Source: Poronia punctata
Taxonomy: Eukaryota > Ascomycota > Sordariomycetes > Xylariales > Xylariaceae
Length of the DNA stretch: 43,903 bases
Direction of reading: 5' to 3'
Assembly: GCA_022579005.1 (NCBI GenBank)
Contig: MU401725.1
Coordinates: forward strand, 1 to 43,903
The notes under the pieces are model-generated. The model was given only the letters and a program-made list of their open reading frames with translations. It was not told the origin of the DNA and did not search any database. This document shows positions 2,061 through 40,799 of the stretch, piece by piece. Both the position numbers and the translations under genes were made by a program. Each line of letters begins with the position of its first letter. Position 1 is the stretch's first letter.

Positions 2061-2533
2061 ACTTACTACATATAGGTTTATTAAAGGTTATATAGACCTA
2101 CAAGATGCATTCTACTTTTGTATAGGGAATTAGTGCAGATTAGGTATAGTAGCTGTAGGCAGACGTGTTATGCCAAATGTGGCTAGATTACTAAGTTAGA
2201 TAGTAAAATCTATAAGTTAAAAATCTGTGGTGACCTCAATCCATCCGCGTACGAGTACATGCGGGTATGATCCCTACACGTCTTGCCCAGCGCCCCGGCA
2301 TCACCCCGCTTTCGATCAGAAGATTCCTTAAATCTCTAAATAAAGCTAGATTGTGCTCTAACCTAGGCTAGGTCAGTACTAAGTAGTCTCGGTACCTAGT
2401 ACGTGTAAGCTGCAGATGGCACCTGACAGTTGAAGTACCTACCACCTAACCTACGTACATTGTAGGTTGGTATGTAGACACGTAGAGATATTTGTTGTAT
2501 ATTGTTTGTAGAGCACAAGGTCGCAAGATGGAA

Positions 2534-2863
2534 CTTACGAGGTGCCTGCGAGGTAAGGTGTTCATTGCATAGGTAGTATGGGTCCCGTATCCACTTGCAA
2601 ATGGGTCCCTTGGCATGGTAAAGTACTTATGAAATTTGTATAGGAAATTGACTAAACTAATAGAATTGCGCGCTTAACACATCAGCCTTATTAAATTAAC
2701 CTATAGCAGTATAGGGTAGGTCTGTTAAGTGGCCAGGCTGAGCATTACATGTACCTCTTTTTGCAAGGGGGGAAAATCCTTACCTAAATAAGTAATGATA
2801 TTCCCCCCCTTGCAAAAAAGTGACCTGCCAAATGAACACCTTACCTCACAGGCACCTCGTAAG
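2534..2863. mobile_element. MITE-like element with 33-bp terminal inverted repeats
   Basis: The arm at 2534-2566 (CTTACGAGGTGCCTGCGAGG and onward to GTTCATT) is repeated inverted at 2831-2863 with one mismatch. That mismatch is C/T, a RIP-type transition. The whole unit is about 330 bp, has no coding capacity and encloses a second inverted repeat at 2757-2820. Size, paired ends and lack of a gene suggest a miniature inverted-repeat transposable element. I could not identify a convincing target-site duplication, so the family and exact ends are open. Confidence 0.55.
2757..2820. repeat. Internal hairpin of the MITE-like element
   Basis: CTTTTTGCAAGGGGGG at 2757-2772 is matched by its inverted copy CCCCCCTTGCAAAAAAG at 2804-2820, leaving a loop of about 31 bases. 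It lies inside the larger inverted-repeat unit and next to its right arm, so the whole element could fold into nested stems. Confidence 0.65.
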
Positions 2864-3471
2864 GTATTGTATTACGTGTTGAAGTAGCGTCAACTGCACG
2901 TGTAACTTTAATAAAAAGAGACCGAGATGACAAGGTAGAGCGGAAGGGCGCAACACCGTTAAGGTTACATCCATATGGCAGGTACCTACAGTATCCCTCG
3001 TTAAAAGTGAGTGGTGCTTCCCCAAACTTCAAAGTGGGCTGACTGCCCTCCTCAAGCAGTCCCCGACTCCCCGGTCATCCTACTCGTACACCCAACCTAA
3101 CAACTAATGGGCTGAGCCGCACACCTCTAGTTCTTGGAGTAAAGTATCCCGAGGTTAACAACCAACATGAATATCTTCCCCTTACATCACCGTTTCCAGG
3201 ATTATACATCAATCTGAACGGGGACTGGTTTTAGCTACATTCCTCACCGTCATGACCGGATTTGAAGAGTACTCCCCAGACTAGGTCCTTGACTAGATCG
3301 ATCCAAGTTCAACCCAACAGTTTGGGAATCAGGCTCCCTTGGTAAAACACAGATCTCTACGTTGACACGTGTCAATAACGGCGCAACCATCAGCAAGCAA
3401 AACACCCGCCGGGCCACGTTCACTACATTTTGCGACATTAGAAGGCCGTCTTGTGCAGTAAAAGAGCACAG

Positions 3472-3847
3472 ATGGAGACACTTGTAAACTGGCTTCTAGA
3501 AGCTTTCCCCTCCGTCTTATGGAACATGGTGGGATGGGTCGCTTTCTTGTGCGTAAGTTTACCCGCGTGCAACTATCCGCCTAGCAACGCTTAGCTGACC
3601 GACTTGCCATATACAGAAACTAGCGAGCCTTGCGTTTGCTGTCCCATTTATTGGTTTAATCATCTTTGACTTCTGCGTCTGGTTATGGAGACTATATAAG
3701 CCCTCGTTACACGAACCCCCCCGCACGAGCCGACTTCATCGAGACCGCGTAGCCGCTTCTAGCTCTGCCATCGATGTCGGACACACTGGGGGGCAGCAGC
3801 TTAGTGAAAGACAAGCTCTCGGCCGGACGTCGAGCGATAACACTTAA
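3472..3847 (+). CDS. Small two-exon membrane protein, function unknown
   Basis: I infer a spliced gene: exon 1 is 3472-3552 and exon 2 is 3617-3847 (stop TAA at 3845-3847), encoding 103 residues. The 64-bp intron starts GTAAGT, ends ATACAG and has a branch-point-like GCTGAC about 20 bases before the acceptor. Joining keeps the frame. The protein starts METLVNWLLEAFPSVLWNMV, is hydrophobic and Trp-rich, and has a second hydrophobic helix with FAVPFIGLIIFDFCVWLW at about residues 34-52. A polar, Ser/Arg-rich tail of about 50 residues follows. This suggests a tiny integral membrane protein with two hydrophobic segments. It is tail-to-tail with homoserine dehydrogenase, 95 bp apart. I do not recognise a named family; the splice signals and hydrophobic pattern make it likely real. 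Confidence 0.65.
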
Positions 3848-3942
3848 CCAAGGTCCCGACCCGAAGCCGGTGCGCAAAGCATCACGAGATACATCGAATA
3901 TGCCCCGCTCCTGCCCCTGAAATTTGCGTATTCTGGACACTT

Positions 3943-5120: not shown

Positions 5121-5808
5121 TTCTCAAGTTTGCTAATCAGTAAAAGAAAGAATAGAGGTTTGTTGCGTCACGCAAGAAGCAAATGATTTTTAGAAAATAG
5201 CCGGTAGGTAGGTACTTCTCTACGCAGTGGATGGGTGGGCGTGGGGTAAACTGTCTGGTTGTAGGCCGATCGCGGGGTTGGCCATGTGCCGAAAGAGGGC
5301 GCCAGGGCCGCCCAGGGGTGCAAGCAGGTCATGTCCACACACTGTGTGGTTTTTGTAGCCTTGAACGTCTACCCCAGGATGCCTTGTCCATTTCACATGG
5401 GCGACTTCTCAGGATGTCTTACTCGTAATTCTACATAATCGATGCTAAGGAGTTGGTAACTTAATCTTTCAATTCTCCGTCATCCCACCAAGACGCCCGA
5501 AGTTGAAGTCGAAGTACCTAGGCCTACAGTCCTATAATGATTAATAAGGGCTTATGCTCTCTTGCTTAACCGATTGCTCCACGGTCGAGCTTTAACGGAC
5601 CACCTTGTGGGAGGGAAAAGCAACGGCCATTCCACCCCCAACCCAATACAACCTTCCAGATACCTAGAGTCTAATCGACACCCGATCCGAGTCAGCACTT
5701 CCCAACTATTCCGAAGCATCAAATCGATCCAAGAACCACTTCGGCCATTCACTCGAGACCAATGACAGATATTAGAGGAGTGAAATAAGAAACCCCAGAC
5801 TACACAAG
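5121..5808. promoter_or_regulatory. Shared divergent promoter region
   Basis: This 688-bp interval separates the divergent starts of homoserine dehydrogenase (-) and the CCDC174-like gene (+), so both promoters must lie here. A GAGTCA half-site (TGACTC on the other strand) near 5688 resembles part of a Gcn4/Cpc1 amino-acid-control site. A single half-site is weak evidence. One TACTCGTA octamer lies at 5420. No clear TATA box is visible. Confidence 0.5.
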
Positions 5809-7789: not shown

Positions 7790-10290
7790 TTACGTGACCC
7801 ACCATATGCAACCACAATCGCTGAGCTCATCCTCCTTTGGGCGAGGGAAATCTCGATTTTCGAGTGGGTTGAAAGATTGTCGGCTTGACAAGTATCGATC
7901 TTTATGTCGCAAGTACCTGGCCAAGACTTCGCTGATCTCGACTTCAACGGGTTCGTTCTGGCTGTTCAGCACCGGGACAGCCTCTTTTCCTTCTTCTACG
8001 ATCTCAACTTGACGACAGGTGGGGGCATATACGTCTGGTTGGGCTACCCGGCGTTCCTCTATCTTCATCTTCTTAGGGTAACGCGGGTTTGGTGGCGGGG
8101 TCAGTGTCGGATATTTGAAGTATTCCGACGTTGCCGTGGCCGTGGCCGAAGACGGAGCAGCAGATTGTGTCGACGACATTGATGAACTAGACCATGCAGA
8201 TGTTGTTGGAGAGGCGGTTGTAGGATATGAAGTATAATGGTATTCCACGTTTTGCCGCTCTTGAGAATAGCGCGAGTTCGAGTTCCAGCGGAAGGTATCG
8301 TGACGGACGGCTTTGGCTAACTGGGTAGTCTGAGCGCTCGGCGTTGACGTCGAGGTCGAGACGGACGAGCAAACAGAGTCGCTCGTAACAGGGTTGCTCT
8401 CCGTAACAGGGTCGCTCTCAGCAGGGCCGCTCGTAACAGGATCGCTTGTGGCAGCACTGTCCTCAACACGGTCGCTATTATACATCGGATAATTGGGCGG
8501 GGTCGAGTTTTGGCTGGGGTAGATGAATACCTGCAGGATTGTTTCCGGCCAGGTGCAGATCCAGGGTCGGTCATACTGTTGTGCCAGGTTTTTCCGATAC
8601 GTGCGGCCTTGCAGTCTCCCGGAATCCTCATCGTCAGGCGGCCGCCGCAAGAAAAACTCGGGGAGGACGATAGTCTTGGTGTAAGGAAGTGCAAAAGCCC
8701 AAGCAGGTCCCCGTGCACTTTGGTAGACATCGTGCACAAGCTCAAGTTGCTGATTCTTCAACGACGGCGGCTGCACTCCATAAGAATATACGAAAGAGTC
8801 CATGGTGTATGAAGTATTGTACTGGATGTCCAATGCATACGCCGTCAAACTCGTCGCCTTTTCCTTCCGACGGACGTTGATAGACATTTGTGACATTATA
8901 GCGTCACAGTTCCACGCATGGCCCTGAGCGGGGTCTTTTAAGCAGCTGTTAGAGTACCGCGGGTTGGTTAGAGTCAAGCTGAATTCACCAAGGGGCAGCT
9001 CCGGCAAGTCTGGGGGCAACTCGTCAAGGGGTATAAACCCCGGTGAAGGATTTGAGTCCGAGTAAGGGGTCCTGTGGAGCAGTGTGAGTTAAGAGTTCGG
9101 GCAGCTATATATATATACATGTATATATATGTGCAAGGGCATGACAGGCGTGTTAGCACATACCTGTTGTGAGGGGTGTCACTCCCCAGACGAGGTAAAA
9201 TTACGGCTAAAATTACGCCAACGATCAAGATGACGCAGCACAGACCGAGAACAATGGCCCAGCACGGTATAATGCCCAAGACTTTCCGTCTGGCAACGGC
9301 CTTCCAGCCTGAAGCTGTACCCTTCTCTTTCTCGTCAACGGCGGGCAGGTCAGAATTGTGACCACGATTGTCAGGACCGATCTGTAAATTGCTGACCTCG
9401 GACGCGACGCTGCGGACGGACCGACGGGATTCGGGAGAGTTTGGCCCGGTCCTGTCGTCGGAAGAGAACTCGGGATCCCGAGTGGCTAAGCCAATACCAC
9501 CGGTTCCCGAGTCCCGAGAGCGAGTCGTGGGACGATGGGTCGGTGCTGGGAGGGCCGTATATACATTTAGCGGCGCCCCAGATACGTGATCCGCCAATGG
9601 ATACTCTGTGTATGGCGGTAGCGGCTCCGTATGTCCCTGGCCGGCACAAGCGCGATGAAACCCCGCCTGTGACAACTGACTCGCAGACCCGGCCTGCGCA
9701 TAACCAAAGTTCGACCCACGGGACCTATCGGTATTGGCGTCGGTGGAATCCTCGGTTCGGTTCGATTCGATATCCTGCCGATACTGGTCGTAATTGTGTG
9801 ACGGGTAAATCGATCCATTGTTGAGACGTGCCGACCCATCGTGAGCCAACATCAAGGACTTTGAGACGTCCGAGGGCCTCGTCGATACAGCGCATGCAAC
9901 CGGGGGTCCCATAGCACTCGGTGGGCGTCCGACGTGAGCTGGGGTCCGACTCCCAACTCTTTCAGGCGGTTGAAAGCCGTCCACGATGCCCCCCAAACCA
10001 GAGTCTTCCTCGTCATCAGAAAGTGTGGACAAACTCGAAGACGAGCTATGAAAGGCGGCCGGGGCGTGCTCAAAGGGGTTTTCGCCGGTGCGGTCATCTA
10101 CCGTTTCGCTGATAGCCGGGCGGTGAGGTCGAAAGCCGTCAGGAATGCCCATACCAGAACAGTATTCGTCGTCATCAGAGGTGTGGGAGCTCGTCGTAGA
10201 CAGACCCGGTGACGATTCAGAAGACGACCTAGGCGAGACATTCTGGTCGCTCCCAAAAGGGTTTTCGGCCGTGTGTATATCTCCCATCAT
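7790..10290 (-). CDS. Large single-pass membrane protein, fungal DUF family (DUF7820-like)
   Basis: Exon 1 is 9164-10290 and exon 2 is 7790-9071, joined across a 92-bp intron (9072-9163; GTATGT...CCACAG) that splits an Arg codon AG|G. The product is about 802 residues. Residues 1-330 are a Ser/Asp/Pro-rich cytoplasmic-type region. A transmembrane helix (AIVLGLCCVILIVGVILAVI) spans about 341-365, preceded by basic KAVARRKVLG. A large extracellular-type domain follows, with a Ser/Thr-rich linker of SDPVT-like repeats, then EERRVAQPDVYAPTCRQVEI and a C-terminus ending SDCGCIWWVT. This layout and the CGCxWW ending resemble a widespread uncharacterised fungal family I recall as DUF7820; the name is from memory. 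The two ATGs at 10290 and 10287 are the first plausible starts. An internal duplication is present near the N-terminus (ENPF at residues 9 and 70). The function is unknown. Confidence 0.8.
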
Positions 10291-13200
10291 TCTGATAGCC
10301 CGACGGCGACGGAAGTGGAAATAGCAAAGGACGGTAGGAAGCAATCGGGCGTTCTGGGCCAGTTACCCAAATTCCTCGAAGCCCGCCAGCTTCGTATGTC
10401 GATCGAGTTGGAGGCTGGGAGACTTGGACTATGGACTCAAAACAGTCGATCACCAGAGTCGATCGAGTGTCAGTTTACTAGTATTCGAGCTTCGTAACCA
10501 TGAAATAAGGGACAGTTCCTAGAGCAAGAAAGCTGCCGTATCGCATAATAGTCAGGTTCGGTAGATGACTACATGTGCGTGTAGGTCTGAGGATTCCTCA
10601 CAAGACAAGATAGTTCCGTTCCAGCCGCTTTGTCAGGTTGTTCACCTGGGATGGCAAGACTGATTGGATGCGACCGGGGGGGTCGGGGGGTGTTCGCGAC
10701 CAGGTAATTTATACAGTATTAACGGGTATCGGAACTTGGAAGTTGCGTACCAGGATGTTAGCCATGCAGGTGGGTGCAGTGGCAGTAGGTACAGTATCTA
10801 CCTACCTAACCTACCTAACCTACACGTTCTTGACCAGGACGATCCAGGAACAGTCCGAGAGACGATCTGTATAAATCGGGTCCTCCTGCTGGTCAAGTTT
10901 GCAGTCTGTACCGGCAAATTTCCACATGTCTCTCCGACTGCACAAGATTACAAGGTGAAATCTGGCTCGCCTATCTACCTAGTCTACACGTACAGGTACT
11001 TACACTTTTGGTGAACTATCACTTAAACATCTCTGAGCACTTGCCAAAACGATGTTTCTACTAACTCTACAGGGTCCCTATATCTATGACCGGAGCCGTG
11101 GTTACTACCTTCTATCTTGGGTAGTCTGGTGGCCTCACTAATAGCGCTTGATCTTTGATCTACCGGTTTTGCGGATGCATTGATAGAGGAGAAGACTCGT
11201 TCGTTTGAGGACTGGTTATTGAAGATCATATCATAACTTACCAAGGTTGGTGTGTCTAGCCCAAACATAATTATACAATAATAAAAGCAGCAGGTCCCGT
11301 AAAAGAATTTGAAGGAATTCGTTGACTTACGATAATAGATGAGGGCATCATCTCCTCACCTCGGCATTATAGCGCCCCATCACCAACAAGGTGCACCATG
11401 TCCAAATCGTTCAACATCAACATCCCGTTCAATCGGCCCAATGTTTGATCGGGGCAAGTCATCTAATCTAACCTAGCACGCTTTCTCGCGGACCTGCAAG
11501 CATCATAGTGTCATGAAGAAACAGGCAAGAGGTAGGTACACAGTACTCGTAGGGTTCGAGAGGGGAACCTTCCAGCCCCGGGAAAGTTCTGTGAAGGTTC
11601 TGCGCACCAAGGGTTCCGTCCAATATTGGCGCTCCACCATACCCACACACACACACGCCCACACATGGCCCACCTACCTTCAACTGTCTACCCTCGACCT
11701 GTTCGATGTTCCAGTGCAAATGGGGATGAGTCGACACGGAGGGCGGAAATATTGCCATCCCAAATACAATCCAGAACGGCATCCGGTGTGGCGGTTAGAA
11801 CTTATATGATGAGCCAGAACTGAATAATCCCTCAAGCGGTCTCAAAATCCTACCGTTCCCACACATCGTGTAACCTTTTTTGCAACCTATTACGGGTTGT
11901 AGATAGCTCAGCTAGAACTCATTACATGGGTGTGTACGAGTACTCGTAGGAATATGCCATGTATGCAGCTCGAAAAGATAACTAACCTATCCTAGGTAGG
12001 TATCGAGAAAGAAACTTGAACGAACTGAGCAGTTTGGTTTACAGCCCACACATCCCAGAGTAGATACTCGCAGGTCAAGTCCGACAGCAAAACTACGAGT
12101 ATTAAAGACGGGGGAGGGGAGTCTTACAGATAGGTATTACACTTGGCGACGTTCCCCGGAATATTTCTATACTTAGCGTGGGCACGAAGAGCCGGCGAAG
12201 ACGCCGTATCGCCCATGGTCTCTGGCGTCGGGTGTAAAGTGTGCTACATGAATATGAGAATGACATGGCCTTAGTAAATTAATGTAAGGACCCTGCACCT
12301 AGTATTGTTCTTGGGGTACCATTGGCATTGACCATAGACCCCAGCCGGTTAAAATTCTCGTGTGTCCCGGTCCTATCACAGGCCAGGTTCTTGACATGCT
12401 GGGCTGCTTGGATAATCCACTGTCATGAAAAGTAAGCAGGGGGGTGGACAAGTTGGTTCTCTGCTCTGGATCCAACACATGATGAATTCCTTCGATGTAG
12501 GCTTGATGCTATGTTAGAAGGTCGTATATATGACAACATAACAAAAAGTGCAAGAGTGAAACACTCTTAAGGTTAATAGGTAAGCTTAAATTAGGTACCC
12601 GGCGGGTAGCAGTGTGGCCGGCTTAGTATCTTTTAACCTCTGCAGCGACGAATAAGTGACAGACAGAACATCTACTGTAATGTAACAGATATACCTAATA
12701 TCCACTAGTCTAGAGCACGAGTAAATTAATCCTAGCTGGAACAGCGACGCTCAGATCTGAATCCAAAGGAGGAGGGGCTGCTTACCTAGAATAGCTCACG
12801 ATGCCGGCAGGTCGCCGTTTGTAGCTGCCGGGGTGGGGACTAGATTAAGCAGTCACGCAGTCTAGGCTCAGCGTGCATATGATTCAAGATGACAGATGTA
12901 ATACCTAGTGATTTTGGGTTAGGAAGGAATGTGAAGCAAGATCGAAACCACAAAACTATAAAACCAAAAGAATATTTACAAGCGCAAGATATATCTTTGA
13001 TCTTGTATGTGCCCCGAGATCATACTAACCTAACCTAGGCCAATGGGCGAAAGGTCCTGTTCTGGATTCCCGGGCTGGTAGAGATGGACAAGCACGATGG
13101 ATGTGTGAGGATGGTGCAACTTACCTAAGGTACCTAGGTTGACCAAGACTCTTTTCGGTTATGGAATCATGATTCATATCACTAGGTATCAAATCCATTC

Positions 13201-14287
13201 AAGGCGATGGCTGAGAGAGATGTAGGTAAGGGAGGGCTGTAACAATAGCTAGGGAGGCGCACATCCATCCCTCCAGATTGTGCGTTGCTCAGTGTCGTGG
13301 TTTCTACGTCAATTTGGAAAATGACCATGGTAGAAGAGGAAGACCATCATAGACAGGGTTCACAAGTCGCCTTATTTCGTACTTATTACCTTGATAAATG
13401 TAACCTGGTTAGAATCTGCATGAGATTTGCAGCTTGTTGTTTCGTTTTTATATTTTGGATGCAGGCATGACATAGGATAGACGTCTGACAGCTTGGATTT
13501 ATCTACACTTGGATACAGCTTTAATACAATCCCATGTGAAATTATATAATACCTCACCAAAAATAGGACGGAATCGGTTTCCTTCGAGTTATTTACATGT
13601 ATGTCGGTCCCCTCTACGGCATTTCTAGTGGTAATATCTAAAATAATGTGTACGGCTCCTATTTCGAGAGCGACCGATAAACATAAACTGTCCAGCAACA
13701 GGGTTGATTTATGGATGCACACTGCAGTTTGTTGTCGCAGTCCAGTCATAGACGCATGCCGTATTTAAGAATTGATTCAACATGACGGCATGCCTATTCC
13801 ATGTGCGCCTTCCAGGATAGGTGAGCATCCTATCAGCCCTCTATTTCATCTTTTTGCGTTTGCGAGTATGTACGAGTAGGAGGAAGTACCTAATAATGTG
13901 TGCAAGCCTGCCAAGGTACCTACCTAAGGTAATAAAACCGAAGAAAGTCATATCCTACGACGTACCTACTTTAATTTACCACCTGCCAGGATACCTGGAT
14001 GTTGATGTGCACCTTCTCCAAACTCGGAACCGCCTTCCTCAGCTTATCTGGTACTGGATATGTATGACATTGCTGACTTCGCCAGAATACTGGCTAAATA
14101 CTTACATAAAGTAGACAAATGCCGACAGTCCCGCAGCTCGGTCTCACACTTCCAAAATTATCAAGTCTCTCAACCTTGTAAATCACATGGAAACTGCATA
14201 TGATCGATCGATATTCAATCAACACAGTATTATTAAATTGAAAAACAACCCCAACATTGCCGATGGAGTAACCTTGCTTGAGCTTTC
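10291..14287. other. 4-kb gene-free stretch rich in short repeats
   Basis: I see no supported gene on either strand. The stretch carries a tandem run of CTACCTAACC-type units at 10798-10823 and many TAGGTA/TACCTA sites. TACTCGTA-type octamers occur at 11544, 11935, 11941, 12094 and 13871. A (CA)n-like tract is at about 11643-11662. Open frames of up to 125 codons (for example 13372-13749, -) have no recognisable protein character. Confidence 0.6.
11935..11948. repeat. 14-bp perfect palindrome from two fused octamers
   Basis: TACGAGTACTCGTA is its own reverse complement. It consists of two overlapping copies, in opposite orientation, of the octamer TACTCGTA that recurs throughout the intergenic DNA of this window. 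A symmetric site like this is what a dimeric DNA-binding protein could recognise, but that is inference. Confidence 0.85.
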
Positions 14288-15921: not shown

Positions 15922-17320
15922 CCAAGCGTTATTGAACGCCAATGATATGCGTTTGGAAATGCATGTCTCGCATTTTTCGCCTCTCTGCAGCTGAGATCGG
16001 ATTGACATTCAACAGGAACTTGCGGTGACTACTATAGTATCGTCTGATGAGGCTATGACCAAGGTAAGTACTCACGTAACTATCAAACTTAATACGAACC
16101 GATGGCGCACAATGCATCGGCTGAGAGCCCCCGAAGCTATGTCTTGTGGCGGCCCCTCAGCAGTGTGACGCAAGGCCCATGCATTCATTAAAAATCGACC
16201 ATACTTCTATCAAGCTAGGTTAGTACTCTGCTTTTCCTCGTCCTTATGCTGGTACAGCTGTGCTACCTCCTACTGCGTTTATCCAGCTCGGCGACAAACA
16301 AACCAAACAAGCCGACACCATGGTCCCTGGGAAGGGTGAACAACTTCTCCGGACAGCGACTTACATCTTTTCCTTATGCATCAGGTCCATTGATGCCTGA
16401 AGACGGCGGCCTTGGAGACGCTGAAAAAACAGCTTATGCCCCGAGAGCCTCATATTTCTCGGGCAAAGGCGGCTGAAAATGGGCATCGAGTAAGAAGTCG
16501 ACCCTCGGTGGGATGTCTGTCCAAATACTCACCCTCCCCCTCCTGCGTGCCCCATGAATATGCATATATATATGTGCTGGCGGGGGAGGTCGCGCCCTGC
16601 TTTTCAGTACGCCCGACCCAAGGTGAAGAACGACAGTGCTGCTCGAGAGGGGGTTGCATTCGACAGGGATGGAAGTAGGCGATTGGCTTGATGCGAATTG
16701 ATTTGGGTAGAACTGGGGGGGTGGCCAGGCAGCCAACCGCTTTCACCTCCACTTCACGCGAATGGTAGTATATGCAAAGATTGCGGCTGTTGGTCGGCCT
16801 TGCTTGCTCTCGAGGTCTTCCCCCTCGTTCGTCCAATGGATCGCCAACCAGCATGAACATAATTGTTGGTAGTTCTCGCAGACGGCACACATAGAAAATA
16901 GGTGGGCTCTGGGTTTATTCTGATATGCAATTTCTCATCAGGTAGGTACCGAGATAGATAAATAATATGTGTAATGTTTTTCAAAAAAGCGCAATGATGG
17001 TTCTGGGCCCATAGTGGCTGTACGAGTAACCAGACTTTGTTCGGGCTGAAGTAGGTGGGATGAGAAGAAGAGATAAGACAAGGGGAAACGTCTGCAAGTA
17101 TAGAGTTTCTGGGTAGAATAATCACTAGTGTCGTGTCATGTACCAGTAGCCGGGCGACGACGCTCCTTTCCGTAAACCCCAAGCTTCAAGTTCATGGGTG
17201 ACAACAGCCTCCCGGAAAACCAAAGACTTCCCTTTCACGCCAAAAAAAAAGGGAAAGAGAGTTGTACACATAAGACCGATACTCTACTTATCACACCCAC
17301 CCTTTATGCATTCGGATATG

Positions 17321-17341
17321 TATATATATATATATATATAT
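17321..17341. repeat. (TA)n microsatellite
   Basis: About ten TA units in a row are read directly from the sequence, in the leader or promoter region of the hypothetical gene at 17753. Confidence 0.95.
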
Positions 17342-17578
17342 CAAGCCATCTACTTGACGCCGTCGCCCACCCCCGCCCGCTACCAATGTCAGTCAGTTTG
17401 TTTGTGGAAACCACTGCCTCGTTTTCCGCCCCGTAAAGCAACCCAATATATATGTTGTATTTTTTTGACACTTGAGACGGGCGGTATTATCACGGTATTA
17501 GGTACAATAAACTTTTTGCGCCGTCTCTCACTTTTTTATCTTCCTTTCTTCCTTCCATACCTACCTCCCTCCCTTTGG

Positions 17579-17601
17579 CACACACACACACACACACACA
17601 C
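17579..17601. repeat. (CA)n microsatellite
   Basis: About eleven CA units in a row, followed by CGTACACACATACATA. Confidence 0.95.
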
Positions 17602-17666
17602 GTACACACATACATATTTCCAGCCCCCAACTTAGACGCCAGGTCATACAAAACAAAACTTCACCC

Positions 17667-17717
17667 AAGAAGAAGAAGAAGAAGAAGAAGAAGAAGAAGA
17701 AGAAGAAGAAGAAGAAA
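17667..17717. repeat. (GAA)n microsatellite just upstream of a start codon
   Basis: About sixteen AAG/GAA units run to within about 36 bases of the ATG at 17753, so they are probably part of the transcribed leader. Length variation between strains is likely. Confidence 0.95.
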
Positions 17718-17752
17718 GACATAATAAATAAACAAATAAATAATAAATAATA

Positions 17753-18427: not shown

Positions 18428-21042
18428 ACTGGATACATATAAATTTGTTACTTACTTACGGTATTTGGGGATCATAGAAAGAGAGATGGGGAGATTGACT
18501 GACTGACTGGCTGATGACCTCCCCCCTCCCCTTCTCTATTCTTCTCACCTGGTGCTTGGTGTGTTTTTTTTCCTTTACGATATCATTTGAATTCCTTTCT
18601 CAATCTAAGCGGCGTTTCTGGCGTTTCGAGGTAAGGAGGAAGAGAGGGAAGGAATATCTGTTGAACAGAAAGTTTTTGGAGCCTGGAACTACTTATCTTA
18701 CCATGAGGTCCCTTTCTCTTTTCGCCCCAGTCTCCCTTTCTCGACGAGGAGGGTGTTACCTAGGCACAGGCTTGGATGGTTTCCAATTCATCTTTCAAGG
18801 TAGAGTCTAGATTAGATATCGATTTGAATTGGTACAAATGTATGACGGCCGACTAAGGTACTCACAGTCGACCGATCATCCCACATAAGATACCAACCCC
18901 AATATATATATATAATTTGGTCACTTTCCTGGGTTATAATTGTCACGGTGATCGGTTCTTTCTCCATGGTTGAGGAACTTGGTCTTTCTCACAACCTACA
19001 AGTAAAAGAAAACCTATACTTGGTCTAAGATCGGAGGTAGCAACTAGGTTAGATAGGTTAGAGTTAGATAGATATCACTCTTGCCTGTTATTACGTATAA
19101 TGTACAAAACATCATTCTGATATTTTGGACAAGCGTGATCTCTTCTCTTCTTCCCGGTTTACAAATAAATAAGGGTTGTCTCGTCCCTTGTTTTCTATAA
19201 ACTATCAACTACCACACTCAACTACGAGTAGGTACCACACAATTACGCAAGATAGGATTTTTTTTAATATAGGAATGACTGATCATAATTGTAAATATTT
19301 ATTAATCTTTTAACACCTGGAAATCACCGCAAATTTGCAGCTCACACGTCTTACCACAGACAAGATTGTACTCGTATGTTTAAACAGTTTTTAAGGCCAG
19401 GTTTATGGGGCAAGAAAGGTGTTCAAGATATGCGAGCCTGTCTCGTTAGGGCTTAGCGTGTAGAGCTGGCTAACCTACGATAGTGGAATGTTGTGAACTG
19501 AGAATTTGTGTGGTGCCTGGAAATGAGAAATTGTTCTGTCCTCCTGCCCATCTTGCAGAGTTTTAATACAAATGAGTCACCGCCAGATTCGGGTTGTGGA
19601 TTGCCTGCTCCTCCTCTCAGGTCAACACACGTGAGGTCTACATTGGGATTCTCGATCGGTTATGCGGTATGACCCATTGACCGTTTAATGATGTGACCGT
19701 AGAAAGTACGTTTTGCAGTAAAGACTTCGAGAGCTCGGCTCCATCCCGCCGGCCGCCCTCCCTCCCCCCATAATACATCAGATCGTGGCTGTGGGGTCGT
19801 GGCTGGGGAAACTTTCTAACTTTAGGTAGGTTAGATCCCATAAACATGATGGATTCTGCCTTCCTACTTTTTGTTATGCAAGCGTCAGCATGCTGTACGG
19901 TCGGCTTAAAACTAATGCAAGTGAATAAACTGATACCCGACCTAGCCAAAGAGAACTAAGTTATCATCAAGTTTTACGGGAGGGAGCTATGTACCACGTA
20001 GGTAGTTCATCCAAATGGTCTATCTTGGCGGACTAGGTAAGGTCAGCACTTTAACGATATTGCAGGAGCAGGACCGTATCAAACGGTTGGACAACTATGA
20101 CGATACGAGTAGGTACTACATAAGGGTACAGTCGGCCAAAATGTGACAAAACGCCAGACGGTTGAATGCCAACCACACTTCGGCAGTTTTACCGAACCTA
20201 ATAATCAATGAAAACACGGACTTGGTAGGAGGCAAATTCAGCGGCCGGATGCACTGCCCAGTTGTTACCTGCCCACATGAGGTAATAGCATACAACACTT
20301 ACCTTTTGATTTTGGCATTTACCATACCAGTACGAGTATTCTTGGTGTTCGCAGCCCTGGTCCTGGCATTCCTTGGTATTTTCCTCTACAAGTACGTGCA
20401 TGCCAGACAAGCAACTCTCGTCAAAACTCACACCGCACCAGTCATACCGTGGACCCATGTGATCGAGTAACATCTCGAGCAACGGGTAAAAAGTTTTGAG
20501 GACTCCCAAGATAGGTAACCTAGTCTAATGTGCGCTTACGCAGCTAAGCATGTTTGTTGGTTAGACGATCTTCCAATCTTTCGTGTGTACGCCAATCACC
20601 GCTCAACTCGTCCCTAGTAGAGCAAGGAAAAATGTACCCCTCGGAGTCTTATTGCTGCCTGGTTGCCTCTGGAGCCCGCCGTCCCTTGATTCGGCGGGCA
20701 AATGCCCAGGCTAGACTAATGTGACCGACGTATCCAGACCGCTGAACCAGTCAGCCTTACTTGCCCGCCATGCTGTATAATGTATATAAAAGGCCGTGCA
20801 GCCCTACTGTTCCACCCTTCTACCTACCGGAAGCAACCGAGTATCATCTATTAAGTTGCCGGTAAACTCAGCCCTCGGACTCCTCGTCTGATTCATTGAA
20901 CGCTGTTGATCGGCGCTACTCTACGTCCAAACGTCGAATAGGTTCGCCGGCTAGACTAGCGAGCTACACAACCCTTTTATTGAGTTGGTTCTATTTACAC
21001 CGTCTCCCTCGAAACGAGCGAGTTAGGTTTTAAATTCCGGCC
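18428..21042. other. 2.6-kb gene-free stretch with promoter of the BCS1-like gene
   Basis: No supported gene. TACTCGTA-type octamers occur at 19223, 19369, 20104 and 20331. The right end (about 20750-21042) is GC-richer and contains a TATA-like box, consistent with the promoter and leader of the AAA ATPase gene. A 102-codon frame at 20162-20470 has a hydrophobic stretch but no other support. Confidence 0.55.
20784..20792 (+). promoter_or_regulatory. TATA-like box of the BCS1-like gene
   Basis: TATATAAAAG lies about 260 bases before the ATG at 21043 and is followed by a pyrimidine-rich segment (CCACCCTTCTACC), a common fungal transcription-start context. It is the clearest TATA match near any gene here. 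The leader would be about 200-230 bases. Confidence 0.5.
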
Positions 21043-23166: not shown

Positions 23167-26100
23167 GCTCACGCGTTTTTACGATTTATGAAAGGGAAAA
23201 AAAATATGCATTGCTATGGCGTTTAAGGGCAACTTTTTCTTCTTCTTTTCTTTTCTCTCTTTGTAACCATCCATGTAAATACCTACCTACCTGATCAAAA
23301 TGACATCGCTATACCGCCCGACTCTAAACTTCCAGCTACCTCTCTAAGTCAAACTTATGCTCGTAGATCTAGATACCTTGGGTAGATGTGCCTATCGTAC
23401 GTAGGCCCGGCTTGATATGCGCGTATTTATTTACTTACTTTCTTTCTTGGATACATTCCGAAAACGAGTAAGAGGAATCAATTATCAAGGCAGATACTTT
23501 AGATATGAAGGTAACCAACAAGGTTATTTATTACAGGCACTACAGGGTCGTGATACTTACCTCGAGTACCTAAAATCACCTACGTACCTATTCCCAGAGC
23601 CGGGGCAGAAGCAGAATTATAGATACATAGAGAATCGATCGGCTTTTAAAACATCATTAATTACCTACCTAGGTTACCTTTTCGTTTTCGGGTTTTACTC
23701 GTATTACTTTTTTGTTCTAAGAAAACTGTGTTTTTTTTTTTTCTCTTTCTCTTTTTCCGCGCTAATCCCCGGCCGGCAATTGCCTTTTCCGGAACGAAAC
23801 GGCCCATCTTTCTGGGTTTAGTTTAATATAAGTAGTGTTAACGTGGAGACTCTCGTAGGTAGGCTGCAAAGAGAGCCCATCTTGGGTAAACTCCGAGATA
23901 ATTACCGAGCATGATATCTTTCCTGGTGTGTGATAATGAGTATCTGTCTAGCTCATGTTGTAGTGAGAGGTTTACTTTGTGTGCCCATTTGTGTATCTAT
24001 ATAGGTTGAGTTAACTGCTGTGAGAATGTCACCTAACTTGACTTTTTACCTGTACTCGTAGATATAAATTACAAAGTCAAGTGTAGAAGATATCTGGCAC
24101 TCTGGGTTAGGTACCTAGAAGACGGGGGAGATTTGGCGGGGTCCTTGGCATTGAGGACATATACAGTACATACGAGTATATATATATATGTACGACCTGT
24201 GTATGTATATACAACTAGGTATATGCATGCCGGATTAAGTACATGATCTATTACCGCGTTGCTGGGTCGGGTCGTTCCCACGAGGGTAATGTAAAGAAAC
24301 GTCAACCTTTCTGCGTACACAGATTACAATGTGACGCTAGTGCCATATAGCCCATAGGGTTGCATATAGGTATCGTACATACCTACTCGTACATATACTC
24401 AGACCCCCATGTTGTGATGTAGGAATACAGATGTCGTTCCGTTCAAGCGGGATAAAATTGGTTAGTTAAAGAGATATTCCATGTTCGCTATACGAAATCC
24501 CTCCATCGAGATCGGTTGAGCGGGTACAAAAACGGGGGACGGGACCGGTAACTGCCTACTCGTACTGCCTAGATACCTGCTCGACTGCGAAAAAGCCTGT
24601 GGCGCAAGGGGAACATATATGCAGATCATGATGAGTTCAGAACAGCTAACCTAGTAGGTAGTAGGTTAGGTACTTATCTTGATAAAACTCGGGTGGACCA
24701 GAACAACCATGATGCCACGAGGGTAGGGTGGTTGGCGATAGGTACGAGTACACGCAGATCGAGATTACCATCGAGACAAACTCGGGGCAAGTCTAAGAAA
24801 AGTTAAAATAGGGTCGAGTCCGGGTTCCGAAAAAGAATGGGACGCGTAATCTAACCTAGAACGGGTACTTTTTATCAGTAGCTTGTGTCTATCGTAGAAT
24901 GGCAAAGAAAAACCGGGTCTAAAAGACTAAATCGACTTAGGATTACTTGTGGCGGGAATGAAATGGGGGAGGCTCGTTCTCTATCGCTTTGAATTCTGGG
25001 TTATAGGTCGGCCGGGTTAGGTGCTCGGTGAAGGAGGCAGTGGCAGTCTTGTCAGCGCGGTCTCCCTTTCCGCAGCGGCAGGTCAAGGAAAACGGCCAAA
25101 AGCCGGTCACGGTGCGGATATCTGCGTTTGGGGCGACCGAAAAGGAAGCCTCACATATGATGTACGAGGAATGTGATATTAATTATTAAGTATTGGGTTG
25201 CTTCGGTTGCTTCGGTTGCACCGAACAACAATCCATGTATTGATTGTTAAAAAGGGGAAGGCATGTTATTCCGAATACGTAGAGTGGCCTTGTTCATCGT
25301 CACTGAGAGAGTATAGGGTGAATGGATTGTTGGAGTAAGTGCAGAAGCGGCCAGAGTTGAAAAATTTCGGTTGTGGTTGAGACTAGTATTCGTATTCGCC
25401 AACGGGCGGCGGGCTGCCGAGAGGAAAAAATCCCCATTGTTCCCGATGGTCAGGGCAGAGGTCAGGGTAGCCGTACTCGGCGACAAGGGTTCTCTGGCTT
25501 CAGCTCTGACATGTGCCAAAATAGGAATGAGTCCAGAGCTGCCAGTCTATAACAACTTTATCTTAGAGCCCCAGCTGGGCCAGCCTCAGGGACCTTCAGG
25601 GGTAAAATGCCTAGAAGAGGTTGTAACACCTGTTTCGAATGTGGCGGCATACTTGATTGGCCCGTTCCTGCATTCAGGTACAATGAGAACACCAAAGGTT
25701 GGTATTCCGGTTTAACAAGGCAAACTGTCAATACTTACGCATAGTAGACTAGATAGTAGATACCACTTGCCTCGAGGCTACGCGTAATAACCTACTTTTG
25801 TAATGTAGGTATAATGATGAGCTGAACGGCCTGGAGTGCCTGGGTGCGTAGATGATATGTACTCGTATCATCTCCAACATCTTGCACATGATGACATCGT
25901 AAGATTTTTGTGTTCGTCTAACGCAATTTTTCATCCCCAGATGCAAACTAACCACGGTGGCGACGGCACAGCAAGTTGCGCCAAGTCGTCTTGCCATAAC
26001 CAACAATTATTACTCATCCCCTTCTTGCAGAGGTTTGAGTTTCCTCTAAGCGCTACTTGGTAACATATTTAGTTGTTAAGATAGTATTCTGTACCCATCT

Positions 26101-27956
26101 TTCATGCAGATAAGGGCAGAACCGGCCCTGGACGGCCGGACGGAGCCTTAAAATCCTTGTTAAGCAAGGGGAGAAAGGGAACGGAATGCCAAGACTCACA
26201 CGCAGCCCCCCCGAGTACGATATCCTCCTTGTTTAGAACGAACACACGGGGCTCTGACTAGATAGCATCTGATCTGACATTACTACAGTCGTAAGGCACG
26301 TACTCGCGTTTGCCCCATGTTGTCCCATAATGGTATTGAAGGGTGGCACCCCTCGGACACAGCGAGGTAGGAAACTGCCCGCAATATCGGAAAGAAAAGA
26401 GGGTGGCTCAAGGGGGTGAAAGACGGGAATCTCCACTACAGGGATGGAGCAGGGAGCTTGCTATTCTGATCTTAGCCGTATCTTAAAACATGCGCTAAGA
26501 TAATGCACGTCTTTACTAAATTTTTGGTGCGATAAAGGAGGGGTAACATCCGCCCCCGATAGCGTAGCATTCTGAAAATGAGGGACGTTGAAAGTTCAAG
26601 AATTGCACACAAGATCCGCTTGAAGAATATTTTGGACTAGAGCGAGTGAAATTTGTACCCAATACTTCAGGTAGCAGTACAGGCCAAGATGAACCAAGCC
26701 ATTGCAATAAAAACCCGACTTTAATTACCTAATAGTGGTCTGAATTCAAAAGGTAACCAGGAGGAATATGGCTAGTCAAGGCGGTAAATCTACGAGTAGG
26801 CTGATGCTCTTCATCGTGCAAATAATTATTTCAAACAACGGACTATCCTCCATTAGGTACCAAATACCTAAGTATACATTACCCACATTGTTCCTATACC
26901 GGACATCTAGTGTATGGTTTTGAGATCACTCCCAGAACCCTTTTTATGATATTTCACGGAGTTGACAAGGTAATAAAGAAAGAAGGCATGCTAACATCCC
27001 GTGGGCCGTACCTCTCTACCTACTTTGATAGGATATAGCTTAAAGTGTAATGGGGTAGTGCTATCTTCTTGCGCAATTGGAACTTTTCCCTGTGCGTGGT
27101 TAAGGTTGGTAAGTAGGCACGTAGGTAATACTTGGATGTGTAGGTCGAGGAAACAACCATTTCAGGGAACTGCCGAGCTCCATCCAATCAAAGCACTAAA
27201 GGCAAGAAAGGAGCAACAAAGGGCGCGACTTTAGGTAAACCAAAGGAACCAACCTGGACAGACGCGTAGATAGTACATGCATAGATGTAGGTAGAATGCA
27301 ACAGGGTGGTGTGGTTACCAGATTAAAGTAAATGTACGTATATGTTGTTTGTGTGTATCTGGGTACGTAAACCCTGACAGCCTGATACCTACCACAACTC
27401 TCAAGAACTACTCAGTACCGCTTTCAAACAAGCCGTCAAGCACGTACGGATGCACCCTCAATAGATGTAACAGAGGAAGGCCAAAGGGATTCTGACAACA
27501 ATTAGACTGATCTCCACAAAGTGTCTGCATGCTACCTTTCTAGGACTGTTTAGGTATATTTGCTGGCTTGTATACTATCTCATGCTCCCACTTCAAGTAC
27601 GATTTGGCGGGGCAAACATATTGGTTGGTGAAGTACTATGTACATCTCATCACACTACCCCTGATGGAGACGGTGCCACTTCTTTCGACCGGATCCCTGT
27701 TGTCAACGGGAGGGACATCGACTTACATTTCAGCGGTGAAACTACTTCAAAAGGCCACCCTTCCTCGCTGCTTGCTATCGAGCACTAGTCTGGTTCTCTC
27801 TCCTTCATACCTACTGTTATATTTCCATCCCTCTCCGCCTCTCCTTCCATAGCACCGCAGTCCTCCGCACTTCGAGCAAGCTCCGAGTACGCATACTGCT
27901 GGATCTACCTAAACGTTCCCAACCTTATATATTTGCCGGAAAGGTCTACAGAAACC
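23167..27956. other. 4.8-kb gene-free stretch, densest in TACTCGTA octamers
   Basis: I find no supported gene in the largest gap of the window. Octamer copies lie at 23696, 24053, 24171, 24384, 24557, 24743, 25860 and 26791, with many TAGGTA/TACCTA sites between. A GC-richer patch at about 25020-25160 has a minus-strand open frame of about 66 codons without a good start; I do not call it. The last 350 bases should hold the HMG-CoA synthase promoter, including TATATATTTG near 27926. Confidence 0.55.
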
Positions 27957-34699: not shown

Positions 34700-36250
34700 C
34701 TTTTGTTTTTCTCGTAACAACTGCCGGTTATATAGAAGTCCAGTCTGTCTCTGTAGAGGACGTAGCGTTCACCAGCGCAGTACGTTATGCGTGCCGTGCT
34801 GCCTGGTTCGGCTCCAAGAAGGGCAGTTGGAAGCCGCTCTGAATACCACTTTCCCTGACTGACTGACCATTTATTTCACCCACAAGAAATAAAGATATTG
34901 GCCACCCAGAGAAAAAATGAAAAAGAAAAGAAAAATGGAAAACACCTTCCTTCCAATAAGGCTTTGTGCTCGGGGCCAGTTTTCCCACAGTCCCAACGAT
35001 TATTCCAAAAGTTATCTCGCCACTCTCTCTCTCGTCTTGATGTCCCGCTTGCTACACGTATTTCCTACTCGTATACAACATAGAACATTGTCTGTCTTTC
35101 AAACAAAAAGATGTAAAATTATAACCAGATAGGTACCTACCTGCAATAACCCCCAAGTAGTCTAATCAGAAACACAAACAGTCTAATACCTAGCAAGTAG
35201 TCTAATCTCGGTAACAAGAACCTCTCTTCTAAAACAACCTCGACTACACGTAGGTATCTTAACGTCACGATAACTCGTACCAGATCGACTTGGTTTTCTT
35301 CGTCGACATTTCCTTTTATAGCCTAGCATCTGCACAAGCTAACTTGAAATGGAAAAGAAACCTTGTCATGCTTTCTCTATATTGGGCTTTAAGCCGAGGT
35401 ATATCGGCAGCGGGCAAACTTTCACATCCTTAGTCTGGTTTGTACAGTGTTAGATGTCCGTATATATACTGTGTAACCTCTTTTACTTGTACACGTACAC
35501 GTACAAGACGCAAGGGGGCAAACATCTACCAACGTGATGGGCTAAATTAGATAAAGTAGGTAGCGGTACTTGTCGACGATACCAAATCTCATAATCCGGA
35601 CTAGCGGCGTTCAGAGAGCATGGCAGATATTATCGATAGATACCTAGATAGAAACACCAAATATAGTCTTACGTGTTAACAATACTGCTAAACACAAGAT
35701 AACTAGCGTACCTTAGGTAGACTCAAGATTCTTCACGTACAGAATTCAATATCATGTGCTACTAACAACATCAACCGACAGCTTTAAAAGGGGGGGAAAA
35801 GGAGGAGTACCAAAAGAGAAAATATGCAGATGCTGGACTTCTAAAGACAATATTATTTTCCCGCTTATTGAAATTGCGTCAGCCTGATAGAACTACCATC
35901 CGACACACGTTACATACTTAACTCGCTGTATACCAAAGGTACGGGGCAAACTCCTACTCGTAGGTAAGAAACAAGCAAGACACCAACCAGTGTTCGATAA
36001 CCTGTGTAGTGTGCATTGCCGTAAAATATAATTTCCTTTCGAATTCCTAATTTTCAATATCGCTTCGAAAACCCGGGGCTTTTGCTTTGGCCTGCGCTTG
36101 CCCCCAATACAACCCATATCCTCACATATTTTTACTATTACAGATTGAGAGCATGGAATGCCACAGGGAAAAACATATAAATAGATCCAGGAGCACTGGA
36201 TCTATACTCCATTTATCCTAGTCATCCTTCTAGCCCGAGAGACGGACTTT
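34700..36250. other. Gene-free interval between hydrolase and Pex14
   Basis: This holds the hydrolase promoter (left) and the Pex14 3' region (right). There are octamers at 35066 and 35955 and an inverted repeat CTTGTAC...GTACAAG with CACGTACACGTAC between (about 35486-35506). No gene is supported; open frames here are short and unlike proteins. Confidence 0.55.
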
Positions 36251-37553: not shown

Positions 37554-38477
37554 GTTTGCAGCTTCGAATTCTGGCTCTCAATATGTCATATCATATTATT
37601 ATTATTCTGTAAGTTGACCAAAATTGCAAGGCCCAGGCGATTTGATGGTTGTCGCGCGTCAGAAACCACTGGTTCGATGATCATTTAACGACGAACCCGA
37701 TCCTGTATTGGCTTGACTGGGGTCACACAGGGGAGCCTTGGCCGTTTGTGGTTTGGCCCGAACCTTCTGGGCCGAGGCTCGCGGCCCTTCCTGCTGACTA
37801 TCTTTATCCGGTCACGTGGGCCCTTCCCTCTAGGTTACATCTATTGACACTTCTCTCACTTTGAAAATCGATCCTTCGTTTCTCTAGAGAATGAATAAAG
37901 GATCAAGTTACTCGATTGTATGGACCTCAATGTATCAATTGTTCGACCTAACGCAGATGCAGCAGGACTACTTACTTACGTAGTTCGTAGTACCTAAAGC
38001 AATATCGCGACATGGTACATACCTGTATCAGTCTCTATCATCCGAGTCTTTTTTTTAAAACATCACCAACCGGAGGTGTTACAGTTGCATATTATTTCCC
38101 CATATATGGTATTGTCTATTTCGCAATACCTCCAGCTCTCTTTATGGCCCATACTCAGTTGGCTACCTAGGAATAGCTCAGTGTCTCTTAAAATGAAATG
38201 TCTAAAGCAAGTATACGCTCAAACCCCGAATCCATCTGAGACCCAACACCACCGTTTTCCTCTATCCCAGCGATAGATGTAGTCTTAGCAACAAGCTGTT
38301 GGCTGGATGAGAAAAGGGAAAGCAAGAAGCAAGCGGTAATAACCAGATGCTAGGTGACCACTTCAGCGTCTATCTACATCGTACCTCATAGGTAGGTTCC
38401 TAAATAACACTTATTTTTGCGCGGCTTCTATTGCGCAGATGTGTACCTGTGGTTATGTTCGGTAAAAAGGTCCGTTA
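37554..38477. promoter_or_regulatory. Pex14 promoter and Apd1-type 3' region
   Basis: About 920 bases separate the Pex14 start from the stop of the upstream minus-strand gene, so the Pex14 promoter must lie in the left part. No TATA box or recognised regulatory site stands out. No gene is supported. Confidence 0.45.
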
Positions 38478-39847
38478 TTACCAGCTCATCAAGCCCTTGC
38501 CGCGATCAAAGCCACCGCGCAACTGACTATCAGGTTTGACAACTTTGCCCTGAAGGACCGTGTACTTGACGATATTCTCGCAGTCCTCGGGGCGCACGCG
38601 GGCAAGCCAGATACACTGGGCCGCGCCGACGTCCTCTTCGCCCCCGCTGTCGCCGTCGTTTTGCACGCCGCCATTCGTTACGCCCTCAGCTTGGTTAACG
38701 ACCGGCGTCGCCGTCTTGTTCTGCACGGCTTTCTTGATTTGTACATCTTCCCCGGGCGCTAGCTTACCCCTCTCCACGCCATCTAACCCGAAGGCGTCGG
38801 GCCGACGATAGACCATCATGTTGGCCGAGTATTTGTGCCCGCCGACATGGTTTATGAAATATATGCCCACGCCGCCGGGCCGCTCGTCGTCGAGGTCGCG
38901 GAACAAGCCCAATGGCCGCAGGTGTCGCTCTAGTTCCTTCCGTAATATGGGGGCACTTTGTCCACACCGGGCGTCGCGCGTTTTGTGCGAGCAGAGGAGG
39001 ATGAGGGCGCGGTGCGGAGAGGGTCGGGCGAGCAATTGCTGCGCATCGGGAAGATCTGGTAATGGCAGGGATCGAGGTAGGGTGACGGGTCCCAAGGGCG
39101 ATACGGACGTAGGTGCATGGTCGATATATTCGGATATTATCGAGGGGACGGCGGCCGGCGTTATGTTCTCAATCACGGTGAAGGCGGGGAGTAATATGGC
39201 GGTTGTAGGCTCGGAGTAGTCCGATGTGTGCGACGGTGTAGGCATGTTGGAGGCGGATAGCATGAGACGCTGTTGATGCAAATTTCCAGTTAGTAAGCTG
39301 CTATCGTCCAGGCAATAAATTTACAGTAGATTTAAGGTTTCAACATGCAAAACCTGTCCTATACTGTTCATTTTCCGGAGGGAAGGTATAAATCGATGCC
39401 CTTGCCGATGGGAAGGCATCAATTTAGAAAAATGTAAAAATGACGTACCCCATTTCCAGGATCTGCAGCCTTTCCAAAAGCCTCCATAACGCTACCTTTC
39501 TCATCTGCGACATCGCGAACCCAGTCCGACTTACCGGTCGCGATGATGATGTGAGTGCTCCATCCCTTGACATGGCCATAGAGGAGGTCGCTCTCATCGA
39601 TTTTGAATCCACGGGGGTACTTGACATGGCAGCTCTCACAATCGTGGGTGCAATCATCGCCGTCGATGGCGGGGTCCGTGGACGTAAATAGCGTCGTCAT
39701 CTCGGCGGGGGCGGTTGGTTCCTCTCCCGTCGCTAGCCTCCTGGCACCGCCAAGCCATGACTTTAATCCCAGCGCCATCTTCTGTTTCAGAGGTGGCTGT
39801 CGAGTTGGGGTTGACTGTTTGGGGAGAGAGGACGGCTCACCGGCCAT
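38478..39847 (-). CDS. Apd1/Aim32-type sucrase/ferredoxin-like [2Fe-2S] protein
   Basis: Exon 1 is 39449-39847 and exon 2 is 38478-39269, joined across a 179-bp intron (39270-39448; GTACGT...CAACAG). The product is 396 residues. The N-terminal half contains CTHDCESC and LYGHVKGWSTHIIIATGKSD. The C-terminal domain has CSHKTRDARCGQSAPIL and INHVGGHKYSANMMVY. Cys226, Cys235, His274 and His278 have exactly the spacing of the yeast Apd1 cluster ligands as I recall them (Cys207, Cys216, His255, His259). These proteins carry a bis-His, bis-Cys [2Fe-2S] cluster. Yeast Apd1 is cytosolic and linked to actin patches and tolerance of redox-active compounds. The end QGKVVKPDSQLRGGFDRGKG is also family-typical. 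The ATG at 39847 gives MAGEPSSLPK. I leave the symbol open because Apd1 and Aim32 are related. Confidence 0.92.
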
Positions 39848-40799
39848 GGTGGGCGCAAGAGGTAGGTGCGGTAGGTATATATTAGTGGGCTTTCTTTGCG
39901 GCCCCAGATACTAATTTAGATCGTGTAACCGCCGTAACGGAGCAAAAGTCCCCTTTTTTATTACTAGGTACCGGCTTTGTCCTGTTACCTATCTGATCTC
40001 CCCAGTCAGCATATCTTTCCCATCTCACCATTTTGGCTGATGGTTGAGTAAGCACGGGATCCTCATTGAACCGGTTGCTCTGTTTACTCGGGGGTTTTTA
40101 ATGCACCAGAACATACTTTGATATCATAGAGCTCTGCTCTTGCTAGGTATGTGGATAGTTGTAAGGTTGTATTGGCAACCACTGACGTATTACGGGTCTC
40201 GAATGTTACGCAGGTTAGGTACGAGTAGCGACGCTTCCTTTACCTCAGTCAACAACCCATTACGTTCAGGTAAGAGCCCGCCGCGAAATCTTCTTAAAAG
40301 GCTAGGACGATGTACTCGTAAAGTGTCAACCGATTTTCGAATTATAAACAAAAAAAGACTTGGACTTTCTTTTCTAGTGGCCTATTTCGCAACTATATGT
40401 AGTAATTATACAAGGCAAACACTTGAAAACGGCAACCGCAAACGCACCCCCTAAGATTACTCGTACAGGCTTATTCTCGGAGATAAACGATAAGGGCGGT
40501 GATGTTTCGAGTGCGAAGTGATCTCTCGGACAAGCTCGGTCATAAAAGCCTGGAAACCGTACGGAGAAGGACTTCGGAGTCCGAGTTTACGTGCGAGTAC
40601 CTACATAGTAATCTTTTGTACTCGTAGGTTAGGTGGGTACCATCACGGCTTATCAGATGCCAATTGCGCGATACCTTGAAAGAAAACGCCAGCGGGGAGG
40701 CTTGCACATGTCATCTTTAAAGTTATCAGATCCATATGCAGCAAGCTTCCTATTGGCCAGGTAGCCCCCCACCAAAACACAATACACATACACAGGGTT
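39848..40799. other. Gene-free interval at right edge of the island
   Basis: This holds the promoter of the Apd1-type gene at its left end. Four TACTCGTA-type octamers lie within about 400 bases at 40220, 40313, 40458 and 40619, the tightest group in the window. No gene is supported. Confidence 0.55.

Follow-up and report, generated by a model that had tools for sequence, protein, structure and literature searches.

An over-represented TA-bounded octamer in the Poronia punctata genome, very probably the excision footprint of a Tc1/mariner-type transposon

We analysed the first 43,903 nucleotides of contig MU401725.1 of Poronia punctata (assembly GCA_022579005.1, forward strand), and this whole stretch is referred to here as the window. 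It carries open reading frames (ORFs), many copies of the octamer TACTCGTA/TACGAGTA (its two orientations), a miniature inverted-repeat transposable element (MITE) and one copy of a dispersed repeat (Table 1). The results indicate that the octamer is very probably the excision footprint of a TA-target, cut-and-paste transposon of Tc1/mariner type.

An earlier sequence-only reading of the window had reported 27 exact copies of the octamer, equally common in both orientations, about 20-fold above a chance expectation of one or two, and only outside exons. All 27 copies were recovered where that reading had placed them, 15 on the plus and 12 on the minus strand, against 1.33 expected from dinucleotide shuffles of the window or 1.6 from a third-order Markov model on its 39-kb island, an excess of 17–20 fold. 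We then counted the octamer in the whole assembly (45.05 Mb, 573 contigs), with the octamer read backwards as the control. The genome contained 11,000 copies (5,545 forward, 5,455 reverse) compared to 1,137 of the reversed word (559 forward and 578 reverse), a difference of about 10 fold, corresponding to about 10,000 copies above expectation. In a comparison sample of 185 kb from 19 stretches elsewhere in the genome (L009–L028 minus L024, an AT-rich twentieth stretch being left out; C denotes a contig of the assembly and L a fetched stretch of other genome sequence; in L023, C15:15001-25000, 5,024 of 10,000 bases are N), 53 octamers were observed against 5.9 expected. The octamer ranked first among 8-mers in this sample when runs of 1–3-base units were excluded, and it was the most over-represented non-repetitive 8-mer in the 224 kb counted (window island plus sample). 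The window was about 2.4 times denser in the octamer than the sample (27 vs 11.2 expected, P = 4e-5).

Twelve long ORF stretches chosen by hand (16.4 kb) stood in for exons in the window, and none of the 27 octamers lay inside them (P = 3e-4, corrected for fewer TA there). In the sample, with a minimum ORF length of 200 codons, 5 of the 53 octamers fell inside an ORF, compared to 12.8 expected by TA share. Judged by these ORFs, the confinement to non-coding DNA held in the window and failed in the sample, and the equal density in exons that the earlier reading had named as an outcome speaking against its claim was not seen. Coding DNA is depleted of the octamer, not closed to it.

The MITE has the structure TA-CGAGGTGCCTGCGAGG...CCTCACAGGCACCTCG-TA, with ends CGAG, and its terminal repeats belong to the longest near-perfect inverted repeat reported in the window island (2534-2566/2831-2863; arms 33 nt, 97% complementary). 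TA, the four terminal bases of the element and a second TA give the octamer exactly to the base. The genome contained seven near-complete MITE copies, the one in the window included, with 92–100% identity; six of the seven carried TACGAGGTGCCTG at both ends, spanned 325–326 bp and showed the TA target duplication at both ends (exact 13-mer), while the seventh (C103) matched from base 3 onward. Besides the window, C23, C84, C168, C182 and C211 carry copies of the MITE. The exact 13-mer end occurred 18 times in the genome and its control once. Partial or larger matches were found on 15 further contigs, including a larger relative matched at both ends (C43:122705-124496, 1,792 bp) and a MITE-related piece (C209:4768-4925). 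A de novo scan of the fetched DNA for TA-flanked elements returned six, four of which were the dispersed repeat, whereas control scans for AT, CG and GC ends gave 4, 2 and 3; the scan is weak by itself.

The interior of the C43 relative (in L076) holds one frame of a broken Tc1-type transposase, with 30 stops in 1.5 kb. Read through with X at the stops, it matched HTH_Tnp_Tc3_2 (PF01498, 8e-7) and DDE_3 (3e-4), both under the curated cut-offs, and the Sleeping Beauty transposase (PDB 5cr4, E = 3e-6). By hand count, 34 residues separate the second D from the third position, which is non-acidic in this broken copy. In a genome search the PF01498 profile matched at five places and exceeded its cut-off at four of them; one of these lies within the C43 relative (C43:123551-123736), and another, at C209:3929-4108, has a MITE-end match 660 bp away, at a fitting distance and orientation. 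In C209:3929-4925 a 228-aa open stretch contains the Tc1-type helix-turn-helix match, which is itself interrupted by two stops. The family thus shows the TA target duplication, the terminal inverted repeats and, in its larger relative, the Tc1-type transposase of Tc1/mariner elements.

Table 1. Positions of the features discussed (window coordinates unless another stretch is named)
Feature	Position	Strand	Remark
MITE, 326 bp, TA at both ends counted in	2536..2861	+	inverted-repeat pair; proposed source family
Left terminal inverted repeat, starts CGAGGTGCCTG	2538..2566	+	
Right terminal inverted repeat, finishes CAGGCACCTCG	2831..2859	-	
Dispersed repeat copy, unrelated to MITE	19353..19516	+	39 other places among matches listed
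TAACCTACGATA, second insert at TA	19471..19482	+	10 bp longer than repeat consensus, which has TA
DDE_1 (pogo/Fot1-type) element	L037:881-2714 (C108)		271-aa open frame
Octamer	2250..2257	-	exact match
Octamer	3081..3088	+	exact match
Octamer	5420..5427	+	exact match
Octamer	11544..11551	+	exact match
Octamer	11935..11942	-	TA common with octamer at 11941 (TACGAGTACTCGTA; 62 such sites genome-wide)
Octamer	11941..11948	+	TA common with octamer at 11935
Octamer	12094..12101	-	exact match
Octamer	13871..13878	-	exact match
Octamer	17021..17028	-	exact match
Octamer	19223..19230	-	exact match
Octamer	19369..19376	+	inside dispersed repeat; paralogous empty sites exist
Octamer	20104..20111	-	exact match
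Octamer	20331..20338	-	exact match
Octamer	23696..23703	+	exact match
Octamer	24053..24060	+	exact match
Octamer	24171..24178	-	exact match
Octamer	24384..24391	+	exact match
Octamer	24557..24564	+	exact match
Octamer	24743..24750	-	exact match
Octamer	25860..25867	+	exact match
Octamer	26791..26798	-	exact match
Octamer	35066..35073	+	exact match
Octamer	35955..35962	+	exact match
Octamer	40220..40227	-	exact match
Octamer	40313..40320	+	exact match
Octamer	40458..40465	+	exact match
Octamer	40619..40626	+	exact match

The dispersed repeat offered filled and empty sites. It was found by a genome search with window 10000-28000, and all 39 listed places were fetched and aligned pairwise; the comparison covers octamers of this one repeat family, between paralogous copies. 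The window copy reads GATTG-TACTCGTA-TGTTTAAACAG at 19369 and L029 reads GATTG-TA-TGTTTAAACAG, a clean 6-bp difference. At this place the octamer was present in 2 of 12 alignable copies (the window and L030) and absent from the other ten, one of which carried TACCTA, while L054 had the same 6-bp insert at a different TA of the repeat. The longer insert TAACCTACGATA can be read as two further scars of the form TA-x-TA. When the six bases were collapsed, the best alignment to another repeat copy improved for 5 of 8 alignable octamers (gains of 17, 10, 10, 4 and 2, with two at 0 and one at -6), whereas it did so for 3 of 21 TAnnnnTA words of other sequence, a difference with P = 0.0009 in the Mann-Whitney and P = 0.019 in the Fisher test. 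The short inserts between fetched copies numbered 135, and the dinucleotide duplicated most often at them was TA (23 cases, followed by GT with 9), reciprocal alignments possibly scoring one event twice. The 40 repeat copies yielded 59 insert calls and 35 deletion calls, a large share of which lay away from TA. Several copies carry varied inserts at the TA before GTGG, a hot spot, and several contain inner inverted arms TAGCCAGCTCTACACGC.

The enrichment was specific to four bases of the element end. Between two TAs, four bases gave TACGAGTA 80 times against 7.5 expected (10.7-fold), compared to 1.8-fold for two bases (TACGTA, 67/36.8), 1.2-fold for three (TACGATA/TATCGTA, 30/25.8) and 0.6-fold for five (2/3.2), and no excess was seen when TACGAG preceded A, C or G (18/38, 27/28 and 33/36). 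Other leading words in the 224 kb had the same TA-x-TA form, including TACCTA (460/105) and TAACCTA (92/25.1). When the five best words were surveyed in each of 16 dinucleotide frames, non-repetitive words reached about 5-fold or above in the TA-TA frame only, led by TACGAGTA (10.7), TACACGTA (6.9) and TACATGTA (4.9). One-mismatch neighbours of the octamer at the six outer positions were at background (124 vs 126 expected, summed over window and sample), so that a cloud of decayed copies is lacking, as would be expected of young, exact scars; with about 72 octamers above background, a mean divergence above about 5% per base should show, by our estimate. Neighbours at the central positions were over-represented (TACACGTA, 31/4.5; TACGCGTA, 6 sites/1.7), as was the two-step neighbour TACATGTA (23 sites vs 4.7 expected, 224 kb), and these are TA-x-TA words themselves. 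The one-base neighbour at the CpG, TACTTGTA, was about twofold over (22 vs 9.8), which is compatible with some decay of the octamer.

The sequence-only reading had offered a binding site for an abundant factor as one explanation. Sharp specificity of this kind would also suit a word recognised by an abundant and specific DNA-binding factor and maintained by selection in promoters and other intergenic DNA. The depletion in ORFs, the near-palindromic form of the word and its clustering on C1 (31 pairs within 500 bp vs 7.7 under uniform placement, among 100 listed forward-strand copies) agree with such a site. Nevertheless we consider it improbable, since it leaves unexplained the base-for-base agreement of the word with the ends of an element that sits between TAs in this genome, the enrichment of four bases only, the 6-bp inserts at TA in repeat copies, the TA frame of the other over-represented words and the match of TAACCTA to the element described below. 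Binding sites would be expected to arise by point mutation, whereas the octamers of the one repeat family compared appear as 6-bp inserts relative to paralogous empty sites.

The earlier reading had also proposed a mutational or gene-conversion bias. A mutational or repair bias yielding short, low-complexity TA-x-TA words with no transposon would account for several such words being in excess, TACCTA among them, for octamers often lying beside other TA-x-TA words, and for tandem overlaps in which two octamers have TA in common (162 in the genome) being somewhat commoner than palindromic ones (62 + 46 sites). Slippage would not choose, out of 256 four-base fillers, the one equal to an element end, nor does such a bias account for three- and five-base prefixes being without enrichment or for the 6-bp inserts at TA, and we regard it as slightly less credible still than the binding factor.

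The excision reading has a second element in its favour. A genome search with profile PF03184 gave four DDE_1 places, of which the one in L037 has no internal stop in the match and is flanked on both sides by perfect inverted repeats (TA-ACCGTTTTGGATAGG). Its ends are ACCG, and a three-base prefix predicts TAACCTA, the top three-base TA-x-TA word; its two- and four-base prefixes were at 1.0 and 0.8 fold. L037 and TAACCTA form a second, independent match of element to word. Fot1, impala and pogo-type elements of ascomycetes are, like L037 with its DDE_1 match, fungal and TA-target; L037 differs from the proposed octamer source in that it would leave TAACCTA.

The mechanism we propose follows known systems. 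TA is the insertion target of Tc1/mariner elements, and once the break made by excision has been closed by end joining, a footprint remains between the duplicated TAs (review PMC2874221); footprint sizes of 2–4 bp are given in PMC7913693. Here the element would enter a TA and duplicate it, giving TA-CGAG...CTCG-TA; on exit the transposase would cut four bases inside each end, and the host would join the broken ends and keep the four bases of one end. The site would then read TA-CGAG-TA or TA-CTCG-TA and would have gained six bases. The four-nucleotide product so predicted between TAs is the top word and is present as 6-bp inserts, both known from static sequence. The mover would be the 326-bp MITE family together with a transposase-bearing parent of about 1.8 kb, the scars being made by excision by that transposase and end joining. 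Cut-and-paste movement of a few elements gives many scars and few elements, so that repeated jumps of a few elements could account for the roughly 10,000 scars. Most of these lie outside coding DNA, those within it presumably being selected against. The suggestion of the sequence-only reading that the octamer marks small mobile or replicative sequences is thus borne out in spirit, the mark being probably a footprint of excision from TA.

The closest parallel is Minos, a Tc1/mariner element of Drosophila hydei. It leaves a 6-bp footprint (PMC10992017) and has CGAG after TA in its end primer (TACGAGCCCC/TACGAGCCCCAACC..., PMC3680223), like the TA target, CGAG ends and 6-bp insert here, and a 6-bp footprint with CGAG ends would equal the octamer. 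By analogy, cleavage in the fungal family would fall four bases inside the end, the position it would also take in Minos. Minos is about 1.8 kb long, like the C43 relative; the two differ in their ends past CGAG, and the likeness lies in ends, sizes and footprint length. The Minos footprint we take to have the octamer's letters, which were not found in the texts. The inverted repeats of Minos are 255 bp (PMC10992017), compared to about 30 nt in the MITE family (33-nt arms), which in this respect is unlike the Minos family. In rice, excision of DNA transposons likewise yields small sequence changes; there only 8 of 94 excisions restored nothing but the two target copies, all others carrying deletions or filler (PMC4423477), whereas here one exact product, the sole product looked for, stands out. 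The window MITE resembles Tc1/mariner MITEs (Stowaway-like, mimp-like) in being short, with no coding capacity seen, in its TA duplication and in having ends in common with a larger transposase-bearing relative; it is unlike them in its few copies relative to scars.

Several observations weigh against the excision reading. Seven near-complete MITEs and 15 contigs with partial or larger matches stand against about 10,000 scars. So many scars would require movement that was prolonged or intense, although they appear young. The octamer of L030, which shares the site of the window, aligned worse when collapsed and two others were unchanged; without the alignability cut the contrast was weak (Fisher P = 0.06), a gain of at least 6 being seen for 3 of 17 octamers and for 2 of 62 other words, and the octamer of L055 lay opposite a base-substituted, diverged stretch, not a gap. 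C or G adjoined the octamer in 71% of flanks and at only 4 of 11 end flanks of the element family (P = 0.017). No source element was found for TACCTA, TACACGTA or TACATGTA, and the prefixes of L040 (two registers), of the L014 pair and of the dispersed repeat predicted no clear word; the five-base prefix of L014 reached 10/2.5, but the word contains TAGGTA. A genome search with PF13358 gave no match, the C43 read-through had none in a large protein search, and all five PF01498 places of the genome search have internal stops, so that no working enzyme of the family was seen. Such an enzyme may since have been lost, may lie in unassembled sequence or may have escaped the searches. Finally, the evidence is static sequence with no excision observed, and such sequence cannot separate insertion and later loss from insertion of element tips alone. 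Unsuccessful or partial insertions that left tips would also fit the few near-complete elements remaining. We know of no process that inserts element tips alone. A short footprint after excision is a known Tc1/mariner product (Minos, 6 bp, PMC10992017; 2–4 bp, PMC7913693), and we judge partial insertion the least probable of the three alternatives.

Flank preference at the octamer was symmetric (left/right correlation 0.80), in part because of neighbouring TA-x-TA words (GGTA 12 vs 2.85). Clustering was clear in the 100 listed forward-strand copies of C1 but, at 500 bp, only weak within the window (P = 0.04), and local hopping is not claimed. Overlaps were considered as a sign of a dimer site and set aside as uninformative, being about 2–3 times the shared-TA expectation by a rough estimate, no more than general clustering. 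Elsewhere in the window, a BCS1-like protein is encoded at 21034-23166, with best named matches in Xylaria (about 60–64% identity), which places the genome within or close to Xylariaceae. A search with the ribosomal RNA model RF00002 gave no match. Positions 1-2000 and 41000-43903 have a G+C content of 10–13% around the island of about 50%, and these AT-rich flanks resemble the heavily mutated repeat blocks of fungi with repeat-induced point mutation.

Among the openly licensed literature matches listed for the octamer letters, no title concerned a motif or a footprint in fungi, and none among those listed concerned genome-wide footprint words. Excision assays usually yield footprints in small numbers. 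Products of this kind are known, but we had met neither the family nor a footprint on the scale seen here, where it ranks first among octamers in the 224 kb counted, and the matches listed contained no report of either. We give about even weight to the broader proposal that scars of several TA-target families (CGAG with four bases, ACC with three, perhaps CC, CACG and CATG) form the dominant short-word structure of the intergenic DNA, from which one could count well over ten thousand past jumps, made by elements now reduced to a handful. Such over-represented words need not be regulatory sites, a warning to motif finders. If the octamer is an excision scar, its count gives a rough record of past jumps, and would serve as an odometer of transposition where repeat-induced mutation has erased the elements; over-represented TA-x-TA words could then be read backwards to element ends, those of extinct elements included.

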